From a bacterium (lineage in GTDB: Bacteria > Bacteroidota > Ignavibacteria > Kapaibacteriales > UBA2268), in the NCBI GenBank assembly GCA_024711295.1, contig JANJTB010000039.1:134319-198318 (forward strand): a stretch of DNA of 64,000 nucleotides, in the 5' to 3' direction. Shown piece after piece: positions 7,581 through 14,502 of the stretch. The notes under the pieces are model-generated. The model worked only from the letters and a program-made list of their open reading frames with translations, was not told the origin of the DNA and did no database searches. A program made the position numbers and the translations under genes. The first letter of the stretch is position 1. Every line of letters starts with the position of its first letter.

Positions 7581-10500
7581 ATGATAGACAATTTATTTAA
7601 TAATATAGAAAATCAAAAAGAAAAGTTGAGTTTGGCTGAGAATTACTTCCTCAGATCAGATATTAGAGACAAGAGTGAATTATCATTATTCTTGTCCGAA
7701 ACCTCAAAGCCTGTATTTCTTAAAAGTTTAGAAAATGATTCATTGAGAAATGATTGGGCCCAACTATGTTTTAAACTTATAAGGAATTATAATTATTCTT
7801 TACTCGACTTGTTTGAATCAAGAACATCAGAGAGTCCGGATAAGACATTGTTCCACGATATGTCCGAACCTGATAAGGGGAAGTGGTCGTACAAAAGAAT
7901 TTATCAAAATCTAAAAGAAATTGCAGCCGGTTTTTATCATGTTCACAATAAAAATATTCTGGAAGAAGTTGATATATCATTAATGCCAAGATTAGCTATT
8001 CTTTCAGAAAATTCTGTAGTTTCAGCTTCTGCTGACCTGGCATGCTTATGTTATGACATATTAGTCACACCACTAAATGTAAGTTTTGGGAGAGAAATAA
8101 TTGAATATATTTTTAAAGAACTTGATATCAACACTGTTGTAACTGACAGTAAGCAAAGAATTGATATGTTAATTAGTTTAAAAAATAGTTCTTTTCCAGA
8201 TTTAGTGATTTTCTCTACAAATAGCGAGTATAGTGAATATTCAGATTCAGTATGTTTTATTGGTGAATATGAGGCTTCGTTGAGTCCGTCTGATATTGAA
8301 AAAATATTGAGTAAACGAAAAAAACTGAGTATAAATCAAGTATGCACGGTAATGTTTACATCAGGCAGTACAGGTATGCCAAAAGGATTGTCCTTCACAA
8401 TGTACAATTTAATTTCTAAACGGTTTGCCAGAGGTGCAGCACTTCCTGATGTTGGAGAAGACGAAGTATTTTTGTCTTTTTTACCTTTATATCATACTTT
8501 TGGAAGATATCTCGAATTAATGGGCTCGATTTATTGGCGATCAACATACGTTTTTGCTGGTAATACATCATCAGATACTCTACTAAATTTGTTCCCGATA
8601 GTTCAACCAAGTGTATTTATAAGCATTCCCCTAAGATGGAATCAGCTTTATGAAAAAGCATACGAGATGATGAGCGACGTTAGTGATTCTAAGGAATTGA
8701 GAAATATTTTCAGAAAGGTAGTTGGAAATCGGCTGAAGTGGGGATTATCGGCGGCAGGATATCTTGATCCAAAGGTATTTGAATTTTTTGGACTAAATGG
8801 GGTTGAGCTTTGTAGTGGTTTTGGAATGACTGAGGCTACAGGTGGTATTACAATGACACCACCCGGTAAGTATCGCCAGGGGACTGTGGGAATACCTCTC
8901 CCCGGAGTTAATTGCCTGATTAATTCTGAGGGTGTTCTCGAAATTAGTGGTCATTATGTAGCAAGATATTTAGAAAATGCAGGACCATTGTCAGAAGTAT
9001 CTTTTCCTGATGAAGAAACTTATCGTATTTCAACAGGAGATGTATTCCAAGTTGACTCTGATGGGTATTATGAAATAGTTGACAGAGTAAAAGACATATA
9101 CAAAAACAATAAAGGACAAACAATTTCTCCCAAAAATGTTGAGAATAAATTTGAAAGTGTACCCGGTATAAAAAGGACATTCCTGGTAGGTGACGGTAAG
9201 CCATATAATACTCTGTTGATTGTTACTGACCAGAACGAAGATTTGATTAGCCAAAAATCACCTGAAGAAGTGAATGATTACATTGAACTTTTGGTGACTA
9301 AAGCTAATCAGGAACTTGCAAACTATGAAAGAATTGTAAATTATCTTATCATTGATAGAGATTTCGAAATGGATAAAGGAGAACTAACTCCAAAAAATTC
9401 ATTTAACAGAAAAAATATAGAAAAAAACTTTTCAAAAGAAATTGAAAAACTATATGAGAAAAACCATTCTGATTATAATTTCGAAAGCCTAATCATAAGA
9501 ATTCCAAGGTGGTTTTACCGAGACTTAGGTATTATTGAAAGTGATATTTCTGTTGACAGCTTCGGATTTTTGAATAAAAGGAGTAAAAAAGTTCTCAGAA
9601 TCAAAAAGAGTGATATCGAAAATCAAATAATGATCGGTGATTTGATTTACGAAATTACTGGAAAACAAGTCAATTTGGGCACTTTAGCCCGTCAACCAAA
9701 ACTATGGGTTGGTAATCCTAATTTTATTGAATTTTCTCCGGTAAAAGATGGCTGGGATACAAATATTGATACTATTTCAGAGAATGTATTTATTGATTAT
9801 AATCCCCAGTCAATTAATTATCCGGTTGATGAAAACAAGCGACTTGGAGTTGGAAACCAACTTTCAGAAGTTAACAAAATTGTTTGCGATATGATATTCG
9901 GTAATGAGGAAATTATTTTTGAAACTTTAAGAAAAGTTGAGCATTTACTTGACAATACCACCGAAAAGTTTATCAATCTATTAAGAAAAAGACTTCAAGC
10001 ACTTGCCAAACATCCAAGTGAAGATGTTCGCTGCACAGCCTATAGAATTTTGTTGCTTGATGAACCAAGCCCTGACTATTCAAAAGCTTTTCCGGCATTT
10101 ATTAAATCAGGTTTAAGTTATCTGAATGAAAAATCAATCAAAGAAATTGCAGGTGGTAAATTAGAAATCAGAAGATTGGAAGCACTGAGAAAAAGACTTT
10201 TAGCTTATCGGACACAGATTGATTTGTCAAATGACGAAGTCACAATTTATCAGTTCAAAAGCTTGTTCAAACTTTTAATAAACTTTCTAAAAAATAATCC
10301 CGAATTTTATACATCGGTTAGGTTTGAATTAATTTCTTGGATATTGTTTAATAAAATTCCTGAAGTTTCTGCATTTGCAAAGCAGTACTTTAATGAAATG
10401 CATAAATTTTATGAAAATATGCTCGACGAGAACACACCAAAATATCCTTATGCTCTTTGGATGAGTAAAATTGTGTTTGATCAGGAGATTAATGAGTTCG

Positions 10501-12197
10501 AAATTGACTCAATTAATAATGTTTTGATAAATAAAGCATTTCTTAAGCAATCTATTATTCTATGCTTTGACGAAGGAGATTTTTCAATCAATGATGTTAA
10601 GGACAAAGGAATATGGATTTCAAGGTTAAGCAATGACGGTACAACTTATCATTACAGAGTTATAATTGCCATGAAAAATCAGCGTCACTATGATTTACAG
10701 ATATTTATAAATAATGGTGATGATGAGAAAATTATACTACAAACAATACTTCGCCATGTTGCTATTTCAGGATATCCTTATGGATACAGAGTGCTTCCTA
10801 AATTGGGTGCTTATCGCCAAGAACTAAAGGCGTGGTCATTCGAATATTTTGGAGAATTGTCTCTTTGGGCAAAAATTCGTGAATTCTCGAGTCAGAGAAT
10901 TAGCGGTAACCCATTTAGTAAAGTTGATGTACTCCGAAAATATTATATTCAAGCAATTTCAGCATTTATTATTGCTTGGAGAAACTCAGGAAAGCAGATC
11001 ATACCCGGAATCGTTTCGCCGAATAATGTTATAATACCTGAACTTGATTTTCGAGACGGAGCTATTATCAACTCAATAAATGGTTGGAAAATGTTTTACA
11101 GTTTTACACAATTTATTGATGCAATTATTCTGAATTTTTACGAAAAACCCGTCATTCACTATACCTGGATAGAGCCCTATCTTGACAAAAGCTGGATTTT
11201 CGAAGCCATTTTAAATGCTTTGGATCAAGAAGAGGGTAAATCTGTTTTCAGAGAAATATCTAATGAAATGAAATCATTTGATGAAGAAAAATACTCTGAG
11301 TTAAGCACAATTTTAGATAAATTTATTACAAAAATTGAGACAAATTATTTCCCGACACTTAAGTTGATTTCATCTGTCGAAAGGTACAATGATTGGGCAA
11401 GTGAAAACACAGATGCTGAAATTGATGCCCACGAGCAGACAATAAGAGAATTAATTGTCCTTTATAATTTGAACATTAAAAATGAAGCTGATAGATTATT
11501 TCTTTACAAGTCAACTTATTTCAAAAAATCAACTATAGAAGTACATAAAAAGTTTGATGAAATTATTAATAGATTGTATCGAAACAAAAACGAAAAAGCG
11601 ACGCAACTTATTGAACTTACCGAGTTGCAAGCGTTACTTCAAAGTCAGGACGAAAGAACAATATTTGCTAAAATGTTATTTCCAAAAAGTGTTGCTAACG
11701 AGATGAGGATTACCGGCAAAGCCATGAACATTAGTGGAAAAGTTATTATCAATTCATATATTAAAGATTACAATAACGAACTATATACAATGCGGGAAGT
11801 AGAAAACGTTTCGGAAATAGGAACTCTTTATAGGATATTCTTCAAAGAAAACTATCCTAAGGTTATTTCTGAAAATGATGAATTTTATATATTGACAGAC
11901 AGTATAAACAGGATAGTTGGAGGATTGTGTTATCGAAAAACTGACAACAATTCAGTTATAATTGATGGAGGAATAATAATTAAATCATTAACAAACCGTG
12001 GTCTTGGAACTGCAATGCTCGAAGACTTTTGTTCAAGAATGGGTGCTTTAGGTTACGAATCTGTTCAGGGGCATTTTTTCCTGAAGAATTTTTACATAAA
12101 AAGAGGATTTACTTACGACAAAAGATATGGCACGCTTGTAAGATTCCTGAATAATCAAAAAAGTATAAATATCAAAGGAAACTACTGTATAATTTAG
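7581..12197 (+). CDS. Multidomain adenylate-forming enzyme with C-terminal GNAT-like domain
   Basis: 1538 residues. Residues about 60-640 form an AMP-dependent acyl-CoA synthetase-like module: ATP-binding MFTSGSTGMPKGLS near 257-270, GFGMTEATGG near 412-421, and STGDVFQVDSDGYY with RVKDIYKNNKGQTISP near 483-515. About 650-1390 is an uncharacterised region; part (near 800-830) looks like HEAT-type helices (KHPSEDVRCTAYRILL). Residues about 1400-1520 match the GNAT pattern, with acetyl-CoA-binding TNRGLGTAML and the closing NFYIKRGFTY. Acyl-CoA synthetases average about 550 residues, so this is a large fusion. Whether the GNAT acts on the synthetase or on other proteins or lipids is unknown. 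The adjacent lpx genes are compatible with a lipid or envelope role, but the link is weak. Confidence 0.85.
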   Translation: MIDNLFNNIENQKEKLSLAENYFLRSDIRDKSELSLFLSETSKPVFLKSLENDSLRNDWAQLCFKLIRNYNYSLLDLFESRTSESPDKTLFHDMSEPDKGKWSYKRIYQNLKEIAAGFYHVHNKNILEEVDISLMPRLAILSENSVVSASADLACLCYDILVTPLNVSFGREIIEYIFKELDINTVVTDSKQRIDMLISLKNSSFPDLVIFSTNSEYSEYSDSVCFIGEYEASLSPSDIEKILSKRKKLSINQVCTVMFTSGSTGMPKGLSFTMYNLISKRFARGAALPDVGEDEVFLSFLPLYHTFGRYLELMGSIYWRSTYVFAGNTSSDTLLNLFPIVQPSVFISIPLRWNQLYEKAYEMMSDVSDSKELRNIFRKVVGNRLKWGLSAAGYLDPKVFEFFGLNGVELCSGFGMTEATGGITMTPPGKYRQGTVGIPLPGVNCLINSEGVLEISGHYVARYLENAGPLSEVSFPDEETYRISTGDVFQVDSDGYYEIVDRVKDIYKNNKGQTISPKNVENKFESVPGIKRTFLVGDGKPYNTLLIVTDQNEDLISQKSPEEVNDYIELLVTKANQELANYERIVNYLIIDRDFEMDKGELTPKNSFNRKNIEKNFSKEIEKLYEKNHSDYNFESLIIRIPRWFYRDLGIIESDISVDSFGFLNKRSKKVLRIKKSDIENQIMIGDLIYEITGKQVNLGTLARQPKLWVGNPNFIEFSPVKDGWDTNIDTISENVFIDYNPQSINYPVDENKRLGVGNQLSEVNKIVCDMIFGNEEIIFETLRKVEHLLDNTTEKFINLLRKRLQALAKHPSEDVRCTAYRILLLDEPSPDYSKAFPAFIKSGLSYLNEKSIKEIAGGKLEIRRLEALRKRLLAYRTQIDLSNDEVTIYQFKSLFKLLINFLKNNPEFYTSVRFELISWILFNKIPEVSAFAKQYFNEMHKFYENMLDENTPKYPYALWMSKIVFDQEINEFEIDSINNVLINKAFLKQSIILCFDEGDFSINDVKDKGIWISRLSNDGTTYHYRVIIAMKNQRHYDLQIFINNGDDEKIILQTILRHVAISGYPYGYRVLPKLGAYRQELKAWSFEYFGELSLWAKIREFSSQRISGNPFSKVDVLRKYYIQAISAFIIAWRNSGKQIIPGIVSPNNVIIPELDFRDGAIINSINGWKMFYSFTQFIDAIILNFYEKPVIHYTWIEPYLDKSWIFEAILNALDQEEGKSVFREISNEMKSFDEEKYSELSTILDKFITKIETNYFPTLKLISSVERYNDWASENTDAEIDAHEQTIRELIVLYNLNIKNEADRLFLYKSTYFKKSTIEVHKKFDEIINRLYRNKNEKATQLIELTELQALLQSQDERTIFAKMLFPKSVANEMRITGKAMNISGKVIINSYIKDYNNELYTMREVENVSEIGTLYRIFFKENYPKVISENDEFYILTDSINRIVGGLCYRKTDNNSVIIDGGIIIKSLTNRGLGTAMLEDFCSRMGALGYESVQGHFFLKNFYIKRGFTYDKRYGTLVRFLNNQKSINIKGNYCII

Positions 12198-12328: not shown

Positions 12329-13723
12329 ATGGAAAAACAACGTACAATAGCCCGAACCGTATCTTTTTCAGGTATCGGACTTCACACAGGTAATCCTTCA
12401 ACAATTACATTCCACCCTGCACCTGCTAATTACGGATATGTATTTGTTCGTACTGATTACGAGCCAAACTTTGAAATACCTGCGTTAATAGATTACGTTG
12501 TTGATTTATCACGTGGTACCACACTTGGAATTGATGATGTCAGGGTGCATACAGTGGAGCATGTTCTTGCTGCCCTTGCAGGACTGAAAATTGATAATTG
12601 CAGAATTGAACTATCAGCTAACGAGCCACCTGTTGTTGATGGAAGTTCTATGCCTTATGTAAATGCTCTTTTGGATGCAGGGATTCATGAATTGGATGTA
12701 CCTAGGGAATATTTCGAAATTAACGAAACTGTCAGATATACAAATGATGAAAAACATGTTGATATAGTCGCATTACCTAATCCTGAATACAGGATTACAG
12801 TAATGATAGACTATTTCAATCCTGCATTGGGAAGTCAGCACACAGGTATGTTCGACCTCGAGAAAGAATTTATTAAAGAATTTGCTCCTGCCCGAACCTT
12901 TTGTTTCCTTACTGAAGTCATGATGCTTCATAAACAAGGTTTAATAAAAGGTGGAAGTTTAGATAGTGCCATTGTAATCAATGACACAAAAGTTTCTGAT
13001 GCTGATTTGAATACTTTGAAAAATGTTTTCAAACTTGAAAATCCACCTATCAGAGGTGAGAATGGAATTTTAAACGGAGAACAGTTAAGATTTAAAAATG
13101 AGCCTGCACGTCACAAACTTCTTGATATGATTGGTGACCTCACACTGATAGGTGTACCTATCAAGGCACAAATATTGGCTGCTCGTCCCGGTCATGCAAG
13201 TAATATTGAGTTTGGGAAAAAGATTAGGCAATTATACCTTGAGCATAAGAAAAAAGAGAAGTTATTGCCTAAAAACAACAAGCAAACATTAATGGATATT
13301 TATCAAATTCTTGATATTATGCCTCACAGATATCCATTTTTGCTGATTGACAGAGTTACATCTTTCGACCCGAATACCGATACAATAATAGCTTACAAAA
13401 ATGTTACAATAAATGAACCATTTTTCAATGGTCATTTTCCTGAAAAGCCAGTAATGCCTGGCGTGTTAATACTTGAAGCTTTGGCACAAACTGGCGGCTT
13501 ACTAATATTTCATAAAGTAAATGATGTCGCTGGTAAGTTAGCTTTTTTTATGGGTATAAAAAATGCAAAGTTTCGTAAACCGGTAGTTCCCGGTGATCAG
13601 TTGATGATGGAAGTTAAATTAGTTTCTAAGAGATTTAATGCCTTTATGTTCGAAAGCAAAGCTTATGTTGACGGCAACATAGTAGCAGAGTCAGAATTTC
13701 AGGCAGCTATAGTGGAAAAATAA
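12329..13723 (+). CDS. lpxC/fabZ: Bifunctional UDP-3-O-acyl-GlcNAc deacetylase / beta-hydroxyacyl-ACP dehydratase
   Basis: Fusion of LpxC (residues about 1-305), the zinc deacetylase committing to lipid A, with FabZ (about 315-464), which dehydrates 3-hydroxyacyl-ACP. LpxC signatures are HTVEHVLAALAGL (H74, E77, H78) and HKLLDMIGDLTLIG. FabZ signatures are IMPHRYPFLLIDRV and NGHFPEKPVMPGVLILEA with the catalytic His and Glu. This fusion is established in Bacteroidota and Chlorobi, so it also informs the taxonomy. The two enzymes draw on the same hydroxyacyl-ACP pool. lpxA follows 2 bp later. Confidence 0.97.
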   Translation: MEKQRTIARTVSFSGIGLHTGNPSTITFHPAPANYGYVFVRTDYEPNFEIPALIDYVVDLSRGTTLGIDDVRVHTVEHVLAALAGLKIDNCRIELSANEPPVVDGSSMPYVNALLDAGIHELDVPREYFEINETVRYTNDEKHVDIVALPNPEYRITVMIDYFNPALGSQHTGMFDLEKEFIKEFAPARTFCFLTEVMMLHKQGLIKGGSLDSAIVINDTKVSDADLNTLKNVFKLENPPIRGENGILNGEQLRFKNEPARHKLLDMIGDLTLIGVPIKAQILAARPGHASNIEFGKKIRQLYLEHKKKEKLLPKNNKQTLMDIYQILDIMPHRYPFLLIDRVTSFDPNTDTIIAYKNVTINEPFFNGHFPEKPVMPGVLILEALAQTGGLLIFHKVNDVAGKLAFFMGIKNAKFRKPVVPGDQLMMEVKLVSKRFNAFMFESKAYVDGNIVAESEFQAAIVEK

Positions 13724-13725
13724 AT

Positions 13726-14502
13726 ATGTCTGTTCAGATACATCCTAGTGCTATTGTTTCGCCAAATGCAAAAATTGGCAGTAATACTATCATTGGACCA
13801 TTCTCAATAATCGAAGATAATGTTGAAATTGGTGAAGATTGTGAAATAAGGTCTAGTGTTATTATAGGGAATGGAGCCCGAATAGGTGATGCTGTACGAA
13901 TATACGCAGGTGCAGCAATAAGCACCGAACCACAGGATTTGAAATTTAGTGGTGAGCCTACCTTTACATATTTAGGTAATAATACAGTAGTAAGAGAATA
14001 TGCTACTATCAATCGTGGCACAAAGGAGACCGGAGAGACACGTATAGGTAATGACTGTTTGATAATGTCTTATTGTCACGTGGCACATGACTGTGTGGTT
14101 GGAAATAATGTAATAATATCTAATGTTACTCAATTGGCGGGGCATGTTGTAATTGAGGATTTTGTAACTCTTGGTGGTGTTGCAAAAATTCATCAGTTTT
14201 GCAAAGTGGGCAAATACTCAATGGTTGGTGCAGATTGCAAAGTTGTTAAGGATGTTCCGCCATTCACTTTAGTTGATCGTAAGCCTGCTCAAGTAGAAGG
14301 TGTGAATAAAATCGGGCTAAGAAGAAAAGGATTCGCACCTGAAGTGATTCAAGAAATTGAACAGTTCTATGACACGATTTTATTTTCAGGATTAAATAAT
14401 CGTGATGGTATCGAGAAATTTATTCAGCGTGGCAAAATTTGTGATGAAGTAAGTTATTGTATTGATTTCATTCAAAATTCAGTCCGTGGAATACACAGAT
14501 AA
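13726..14502 (+). CDS. lpxA: UDP-N-acetylglucosamine acyltransferase
   Basis: LpxA transfers 3-hydroxyacyl from ACP to UDP-GlcNAc, the first lipid A step. The 258-residue length is standard. The N-terminal two thirds are hexapeptide repeats of a left-handed beta-helix (IHPSAIVSPNAKIG, IGPFSIIEDNVEIG, TINRGTKETGETRIG), with HVAHDCVVGNNVIISN carrying the conserved His, then the C-terminal helical domain. It starts 2 bp after lpxC/fabZ and is followed by a strong terminator. lpxB and lpxD are not in the window. Confidence 0.96.
   Translation: MSVQIHPSAIVSPNAKIGSNTIIGPFSIIEDNVEIGEDCEIRSSVIIGNGARIGDAVRIYAGAAISTEPQDLKFSGEPTFTYLGNNTVVREYATINRGTKETGETRIGNDCLIMSYCHVAHDCVVGNNVIISNVTQLAGHVVIEDFVTLGGVAKIHQFCKVGKYSMVGADCKVVKDVPPFTLVDRKPAQVEGVNKIGLRRKGFAPEVIQEIEQFYDTILFSGLNNRDGIEKFIQRGKICDEVSYCIDFIQNSVRGIHR

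Follow-up and report, generated by a model that had tools for sequence, protein, structure and literature searches.

What can a single bacterial chain do that begins as an acid-activating enzyme and ends as an acetyltransferase? The question is raised by a gene at positions 7581–12197 (+ strand, ATG start) of a 64,000-nt stretch from a Kapaibacteriales genome (contig JANJTB010000039.1; 3.4 Mb in 40 contigs). We call this whole stretch the window; all coordinates are window positions, and all features of the gene lie on the + strand. A sequence-only reading had described here a 1538-residue frame with the motifs of an adenylate-forming synthetase at its N-terminus, a GNAT signature at its end and an uncharacterised region between them. 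The frame and its motifs were borne out, and the fusion is conserved as a single chain whose adenylation motifs are intact and whose GNAT fold is real. We are highly confident of the following anatomy: an adenylating ANL unit, then a beta-rich domain, an array of HEAT-like helices, a kinase-like fold whose active site is degenerate, and finally a GNAT domain. Our preferred reading, to which we give a probability of roughly 40%, is that this one chain activates an acid and transfers the acyl group, plausible targets being the enzymes that lead from citrate to 2-oxoglutarate. Unlike the anatomy, which is well supported, the substrate and the target are what we infer. Our search of the open-access literature, outside which most subscription journals lie, turned up no paper on this family.

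A fixed fusion with sporadic distribution

Seven further genomes from the family of the window contain homologues (45–62% identity, no inner stops); six of them (L002–L007) are open frames of 1523–1554 residues, and the seventh (L008) has 1366 residues, limited by its contig. Since homologues in other genomes have open frames, a frame artefact or wrong fusion is ruled out; the frame of 1538 residues is genuine, and it is conserved. In a sample of 60 genomes of the order, the window's own included, 8 encode the complete protein (or as much of it as the contig can hold), and these all fall among the 36 that belong to the window's family. The remaining matches, including all those in the 24 genomes of the order's other families, cover the synthetase part only, except for an N-terminal piece in genome G003.

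Using the middle part alone as query, we obtained 169 candidate places in named genome contigs, 102 of which encode relatives. Eighty of these were kept; a frame could be traced in 79, usually about 1500–1620 residues long unless a contig end cuts it. The protein is not a one-genome oddity: 15 of 296 genomes of the phylum match, all with frames of 1515–1638 residues, and so do other lineages. Relatives are labelled Bacteroidales, Kapabacteria, Chlorobiota, Gemmatimonadetes, Acidobacteria, Aminicenantes, Zixibacteria, Krumholzibacteria and Lysobacterales, labels open to the doubt usual for metagenome-assembled genomes. One relative labelled Alphaproteobacteria (L074) is nearly identical to a Bacteroidales one (L063), and its label or bin is probably wrong.

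Full-length relatives have about 1500–1640 residues, with their parts in identical order. A signature of the ANL half, described below, is found in 81 of the 82 frames uncut by a contig end, the exception (L044) beginning inside the ANL part; the query in the search for relatives was the middle part only. The fusion is therefore fixed, though its presence is sporadic. Conservation is given below for the 84 frames of at least 1450 residues; uncut frames shorter than 1500 residues are L044 (1141), L094 (1313) and L055 (1480). Neighbourhoods were compared in a set of 95 frames, which omits L026 (its genome is present as L126) as well as L027 and L039 (no frame found) and counts one record twice (L040 and L129).

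The adenylating half

A Pfam scan of the whole chain identifies an AMP-binding N-domain at residues 78–447 (7812–8921; PF00501, E 1.5e-40) and the ANL C-terminal domain AMP-binding_C_3 at residues 511–628 (9111–9464; PF23562, E 5.6e-15); even at E≤10, Pfam lists AMP-binding domains alone for the ligase part. The A3 motif SGSTGMPKG (residues 261–269, 8361–8387) and the A5 motif GFGMTE (413–418, 8817–8834) are intact, as are A7 and A8, and residues T260, S261, G262, G265, K268, T485, G486, D487, D501, R502 and K504 are invariant in the 84 rows. In NCBIfam and PDB comparisons the N-terminal part comes out close to fatty-acid CoA ligases, carboxylic acid reductases and luciferases. Its nearest solved sequence relatives are 6oz1 (E 1.9e-16; deposited as 'Oxidoreductase', and which we take to be the A domain of a carboxylic acid reductase), luciferases and carboxylic acid reductases. 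The family has a signature of its own, LPLxHxFxRxxE (residues 301–312, 8481–8516), which is present in all 84 members and in none of 17 ordinary acyl-CoA synthetases. Judged by its motifs, the ANL half is probably an active, AMP-forming adenylating enzyme.

The likely A10 lysine is K605 (9393–9395), with Lys at this position in 83 of 83 non-gap family rows of an alignment with ordinary synthetases from relatives and in 84/84 of the set above. Loss of the A10 lysine, considered for the stretch ELTPKxSFNRK, was ruled out: 10 of the 17 ordinary synthetases carry Lys at the same place, and the other 7 carry it at position 607.

The same lysine is at the centre of an alternative already raised by the sequence-only reading, that of a self-regulated synthetase. 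Here the GNAT domain would acetylate K605 of its own chain and shut the ANL half off, with the middle as a state-sensing hinge. Pat or AcuA shut off Acs in trans by acetylation, and the window's genome encodes a sirtuin that could reverse the modification, but sirtuins also match in 10 of 14 control genomes. Bacillus subtilis AcuA–AcsA offers a two-protein precedent, as the available part of its description shows (PMC11255334). Self-acylation is conceivable because K605 is kept throughout, but catalysis alone would keep this residue, so that its conservation says nothing for acetylation. Nothing tested points to self-acylation, and the link to citrate-cycle genes described below would be left without explanation; we consider self-regulation improbable.

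The middle region contains a kinase-like fold

In the whole-chain Pfam scan residues 629–1421 have no match, and the stretch without annotation spans about 770 residues (629–1400), near the 740 or so of the sequence-only reading. With the middle as query, Pfam yielded no match for the window; isolated hits in one or a few relatives, the lowest E-value being 0.0011 (INCENP_N, in 1 of 67), were dismissed as chance. Searching the PDB with the middle sequence by phmmer returned no match, and PDB profile searches gave, outside the GNAT domain, at best TFIIS (E 0.011) and Fic (E 0.063). The fold of the middle emerged from models alone: this region, first described simply as uncharacterised, includes HEAT-like helices together with a kinase fold that is degenerate, and comparison with known families yielded a fold match but no family with a described role.

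An AlphaFold2 model of residues 626–1538, built with 67 sequences (mean pLDDT 85.7, pTM 0.80), presents in order a beta-rich domain, HEAT-like helices, a mixed domain, further helices and the GNAT domain. The beta-rich domain (residues 629–738, 9465–9794) has no sequence relative that we could find; its residues P642, W644, G686, Y690, W709, N712 and F718 are invariant in the 84 rows. We read the modelled helical array that follows (residues 759–951, 9855–10433) as HEAT-like from its helix pattern. In a Foldseek search with the 626–1538 model the top PDB match was VPS34 (586 columns, E 3.4e-4; matched range not listed), with a poor superposition (rmsd 15.6). The modelled helical part after the mixed domain comprises residues 1242–1366 (11304–11678).

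The mixed domain modelled alone (residues 950–1318; pLDDT 91.9, pTM 0.89) shows the two-lobed protein-kinase fold. Foldseek matched the model to 356 PDB chains (E≤1e-3), of which the 50 listed are kinases. VIA structural comparison of the kinase-like domain (residues 973–1241, 10497–11303) ranked Bud32 first (Z 14.7–14.8 over 214–219 residues, 3.9–4.1 Å), followed by PRPK, PsiK, RIO1 and phosphotransferases, the best 50 matches all having the kinase fold. The IDH genes found beside some relatives, described below, raised the idea of kinship with AceK, the isocitrate dehydrogenase kinase/phosphatase. AceK is absent among the VIA matches listed, which excludes nothing; across the window's genome, this gene included, its kinase domain (AceK_kinase, PF06315) has no match.

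The active site is another matter. We drew the equivalences of kinase residues from strand order rather than from superposition, and by these the set of β3 Lys, HRD Asp and DFG Asp of an active kinase is not conserved. In the catalytic-loop equivalent PGxISPxN..PExDF (residues 1142–1157, 11004–11051), N1149 is kept in 81/84, while the HRD-Asp position 1144 is Asp in only 7/84; the DFG-Asp position 1165 is occupied by Ser (69), Thr (13) or Asn (2), and no position of the β3 strand (1036–1044) has Lys in more than 5 of the 84 rows. On the modelled fold we read this domain as a pseudokinase. Because N1149 and an acidic residue at 1156 (Asp in 74, Glu in 7 of 84) are kept, it may still bind nucleotide.

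Could it instead be a non-canonical phosphotransferase or nucleotide-transferring enzyme that works through a shifted set of residues (N1149, D1156, K/R1035), giving the protein three activities? The conservation of N1149 and of the acidic residue 1156 would suit this, as would W1012 (83/84), R1026 (83/84), G1076 (84/84) and a basic residue immediately before β3 (position 1035, Lys in 59 and Arg in 10 of 84). Against it stand the rare HRD Asp, the Ser, Thr or Asn at the DFG-Asp position in 84/84 and the lack of a conserved β3 Lys, and we give it only a small chance.

The C-terminal GNAT domain

The GNAT domain (residues 1374–1522, 11700–12146), supported by profile, structure and Pfam, is weak in the whole-chain scan, with Acetyltransf_7 (E 0.0024) and Acetyltransf_1 (E 0.003) both under cut-off. 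Scanned alone, the C-terminal stretch reaches 22.6 bits for Acetyltransf_1 against a cut-off of 20.7, and all 42 family C-terminal stretches scanned match this family at E≤0.01. The family profile matches Tetrahymena GCN5 (E 3e-8), and among the matches listed by VIA the modelled domain reaches Z 12.5–15.4 to GNAT structures, the best being YhbS (Z 15.4; 138 aligned residues, 2.5 Å), with GCN5 at Z 14.8. Streptomyces lividans Pat (Z 13.4) is level with many others; since so many GNATs tie with it, this match singles out no subfamily. The C-terminus is thus a GNAT fold, firmly so for both domain and family, and this call, which held up in structural comparison, is independent of motif A.

Within the domain, G1448 is kept in 82/84 and G1474 in 80/84. 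Residue 1462 (11964–11966), an acidic residue on β4, is Asp in 73 and Glu in 8 of 83 non-gap rows (other in 2) and falls two residues past the β4 Glu of GCN5 in the profile alignment. We take that Glu to be the catalytic residue of GCN5; by its conservation, D1462 could be the general base here. Motif A is represented by TNRGLG (residues 1471–1476, 11991–12008), within the NRGLGTAML (1472–1480) of the sequence-only reading.

In NCBIfam scans, 29 of 42 family GNAT domains match PRK07757, 25 match RimI and 12 match the amino-acid acetyltransferase PRK07922; the window's own domain has no NCBIfam match at E≤0.01. The PRK07757 and PRK07922 matches speak for the strongest rival to our reading, that of a small-molecule amide synthetase. 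The ANL half would make an acyl-CoA, the GNAT domain would join the acyl group to an amine or amino acid, and the middle would be a scaffold. The protein would then be a carrier-free analogue of Ebony, or an N-acyl amino acid synthase, and its link to the citrate cycle would reflect the supply of 2-oxoglutarate or glutamate as acceptor. Models of the amino-acid acetyltransferase type, among which we count PRK07757, do match part of the family; the GNAT domain resembles the ArgA-type structure 5yge (Z 14.4, level with many GNATs), and the citrate-cycle neighbours lead to glutamate.

Several points speak against it. Pfam finds no carrier domain in the chain, and no carrier site is seen, because no Ser is conserved above 90% at residues 620–1420 in the 84 rows. 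The huge HEAT/pseudokinase arm would be costly for a small-molecule enzyme. A role in the arginine pathway looks unlikely in the window's genome, in which ArgJ has no match and ArgB none over cut-off, and synthesis by the acetylated route seems absent; ArgJ alone is not decisive here, its profile matching 10 of 14 control genomes, E. coli not among them. A role as N-acetylglutamate synthase was set aside on the same ground. We judge an amide synthetase somewhat less likely than our preferred reading.

Citrate-cycle genes recur beside the family

Of the 95 family loci, 41 have a gene for citrate synthase, aconitase or isocitrate dehydrogenase (IDH) no more than 6 kb away; among loci with 6 kb on both sides, a citrate-cycle gene is near in 23/41. 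Ordinary synthetase loci were linked in 0 of 20 cases in one control set (drawn from 20 genomes of the window's order, including 9 of its own family) and again in 0 of 20 in a second (11 of the 13 genomes of groups f12 and f17, in which citrate synthase accompanies the family gene in 9 of 13 loci).

The arrangement differs between lineages. In a Bacteroidales clade of 24 rows, 23 are linked and 1 has too little sequence; aconitase is mostly divergent at −1, citrate synthase often stands behind it, and IDH is mostly at +1. In the f12/f17 group the citrate synthase is of another type, sharing about 26% identity with that of the Bacteroidales clade, and its gene lies upstream on the same strand. 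Elsewhere the citrate-cycle gene is at −1 on the other strand (L028), at −2 (L041), at −3 (L038) or at +1 on the other strand (L076), and in L030, L040 and L129 an IDH gene is about 5 kb away. On a quick tree of 91 rows, built without a mixture model and with L142 on a long branch, the linkage state changes at least seven times, 27 of the 91 rows being unlabelled for too short a flank. The family is likely tied to the citrate-to-2-oxoglutarate pathway, a conclusion that applies to the family and not to the window's own locus.

A proposed mechanism and the evidence against it

We propose that the ANL part would use ATP to convert a free acid first into an acyl-AMP and next into an acyl-CoA, as expected from its family. 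Because no carrier domain was found, the thioester would pass to the GNAT domain as CoA; alternatively the GNAT domain might use acetyl-CoA. The HEAT/pseudokinase arm, which may sense a nucleotide, would dock and gate the target, a protein that the GNAT domain would then acylate. Citrate synthase, aconitase and isocitrate dehydrogenase are proposed as the likeliest targets because their genes recur beside the family gene, and the supply of acid or acyl-CoA would then set the flux in the citrate-to-2-oxoglutarate branch. Precedents exist for the separate steps: the available parts of two reviews state that acetylation alters the activity of citrate synthase and IDH (PMC11254643) and, again, that of IDH (PMC6456759), and the accessible text on AcuA describes a complex of this GNAT with the AMP-forming synthetase AcsA (PMC11255334). 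The step onto a protein target, taken by itself, is tentative.

A number of observations weigh against this reading. Motif A is in register (Gln/Arg at 1471, Gly at 1474 and Gly/Ala at 1476 together) in only 37/84, and the window's own motif is incomplete, with Thr at the Gln/Arg position 1471; a loose pattern anywhere in residues 1456–1490 is found in 50/83, the window being included only via a shifted register. The mixed NCBIfam matches do not single out lysine acylation. No citrate-cycle gene is near the window's gene or those of its two nearest relatives, L126 and L127, nor near loci labelled Gemmatimonad-, Acidobacteria or Aminicenantes, many of which are short of flank; the only citrate synthase gene of the window's genome sits on another contig. 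The linkage counts are not independent, since 23 of the 41 linked loci fall in the one 24-row clade, and both control sets come from outside the genomes of that clade. Finally, the neighbour link is compatible with any involvement in the metabolism of acyl-CoA or 2-oxoglutarate, whether or not a protein is the target.

The incomplete motif A also suits a plainer explanation, a fatty-acid activating enzyme whose extra parts serve localisation or assembly and whose GNAT domain is vestigial. Of the 85 residues invariant in the 84 rows, 75 precede residue 642, another 7 belong to the beta domain and 3 come after that domain, as this explanation would have it. The near-constant G1474 and G1448 and the acidic residue at 1462 (81/83) argue for a GNAT site that has been kept, and we regard a vestigial domain as very improbable. 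For the chain as a whole, the 'acyl-activation and acylation machine' of the sequence-only reading is still the best description: its parts and their conservation are found, and the acylation itself is what we infer.

Relation to known systems

Reviews distinguish five types of GNAT lysine acetyltransferase in bacteria, two of which carry an inactive nucleoside diphosphate (NDP)-forming ligase domain (PMC6456759, PMC8556138, PMC11254643). As the available portions of these reviews describe them, the present family fits none of the five, and an AMP-forming ligase with a kinase-like middle is absent from them. Pat/PatZ/YfiQ (types I and II) are likewise large chains with an acyl-CoA-ligase domain and a GNAT domain, and the type I order, with the GNAT last, is identical. 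Their NDP-forming domain is inactive, whereas here an AMP-forming ANL unit has its core motifs intact, and HEAT-like helices and a kinase-like fold stand between ligase and GNAT; the same portions give 700–900 plus about 200 residues for Pat-type proteins, against 1538 here. In AcuA–AcsA of Bacillus subtilis a GNAT works with an AMP-forming synthetase, as here, but these are two proteins that dissociate on acetylation, according to the accessible text (PMC11255334), rather than one fixed chain with a kinase-like middle.

The separate domains have relatives elsewhere. ANL domains of carboxylic acid reductases and long-chain acyl-CoA synthetases are among the nearest modelled and solved relatives of residues 78–628; unlike carboxylic acid reductases, the present chain has no carrier or reductase domain that we could find, and it has its own LPLxHxFxRxxE signature. 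Residues 973–1241 have a fold in common with Bud32/PRPK, RIO1 and aminoglycoside-phosphotransferase kinases (Z 14.8 for Bud32, 12.2 for RIO1, 11.0 for APH(3')-Ia) at about 10% identity, but the catalytic and DFG aspartates of these kinases are not kept. Insect Ebony consists of an adenylation domain, a carrier and an atypical GNAT-type condensation domain, and is not known to have HEAT-like or kinase-like parts. It joins acid activation and a GNAT-type transfer domain in one chain, as here; in contrast to Ebony-type non-ribosomal peptide synthetases, we found no carrier with a phosphopantetheine Ser, and the HEAT-like and kinase-like parts are extra.

Many lineages thus carry, in fixed order, an AMP-forming ligase that looks active, a pseudokinase and a GNAT domain. 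If citrate-cycle enzymes are acylated, the supply of free acid would be linked to carbon flux in one molecule, and the neighbouring genes supply concrete candidate targets. A bolder form of this proposal would see here a further bacterial protein-acyltransferase architecture, which makes its own donor from a free acid and whose arm docks onto and switches the citrate-to-2-oxoglutarate enzymes, an acylation-based functional counterpart of AceK-type IDH control; we regard it as rather unlikely.

Other neighbouring genes

Upstream of the gene, on the other strand, the window contains a gene for ferritin and two small genes that match nothing in Pfam. Downstream, positions 12329–13723 hold LpxC–FabZ in one fused frame (named by eye), a fusion usual in Bacteroidota, followed by an LpxA-like hexapeptide gene at 13726–14502 (assigned from domains). 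A tie to these lpx genes was dropped, the arrangement being absent at L126 and L127.

Six f12 loci (L130, L132, L135, L137, L138 and L139) have hopanoid/squalene-type genes just upstream of the neighbouring citrate synthase; HpnC and HpnE were found by scan in L135, and the other five loci were assigned by clustering. In five Kapabacteria-like loci (L029, L030, L040, L128 and L129, two of them one record) the +1 gene, on the opposite strand, encodes about 707 residues with hydrophobic stretches (L030:12706–14826). A regulator gene adjoins the family gene, divergent at −1, in six loci labelled Acidobacteria/Aminicenantes (L069, L075, L088, L101, L102 and L104). It encodes about 335 residues (456 in L069) and is of the GntR type in L104, the one scanned (L104:6932–7945, minus strand), a hint at metabolite-controlled expression.

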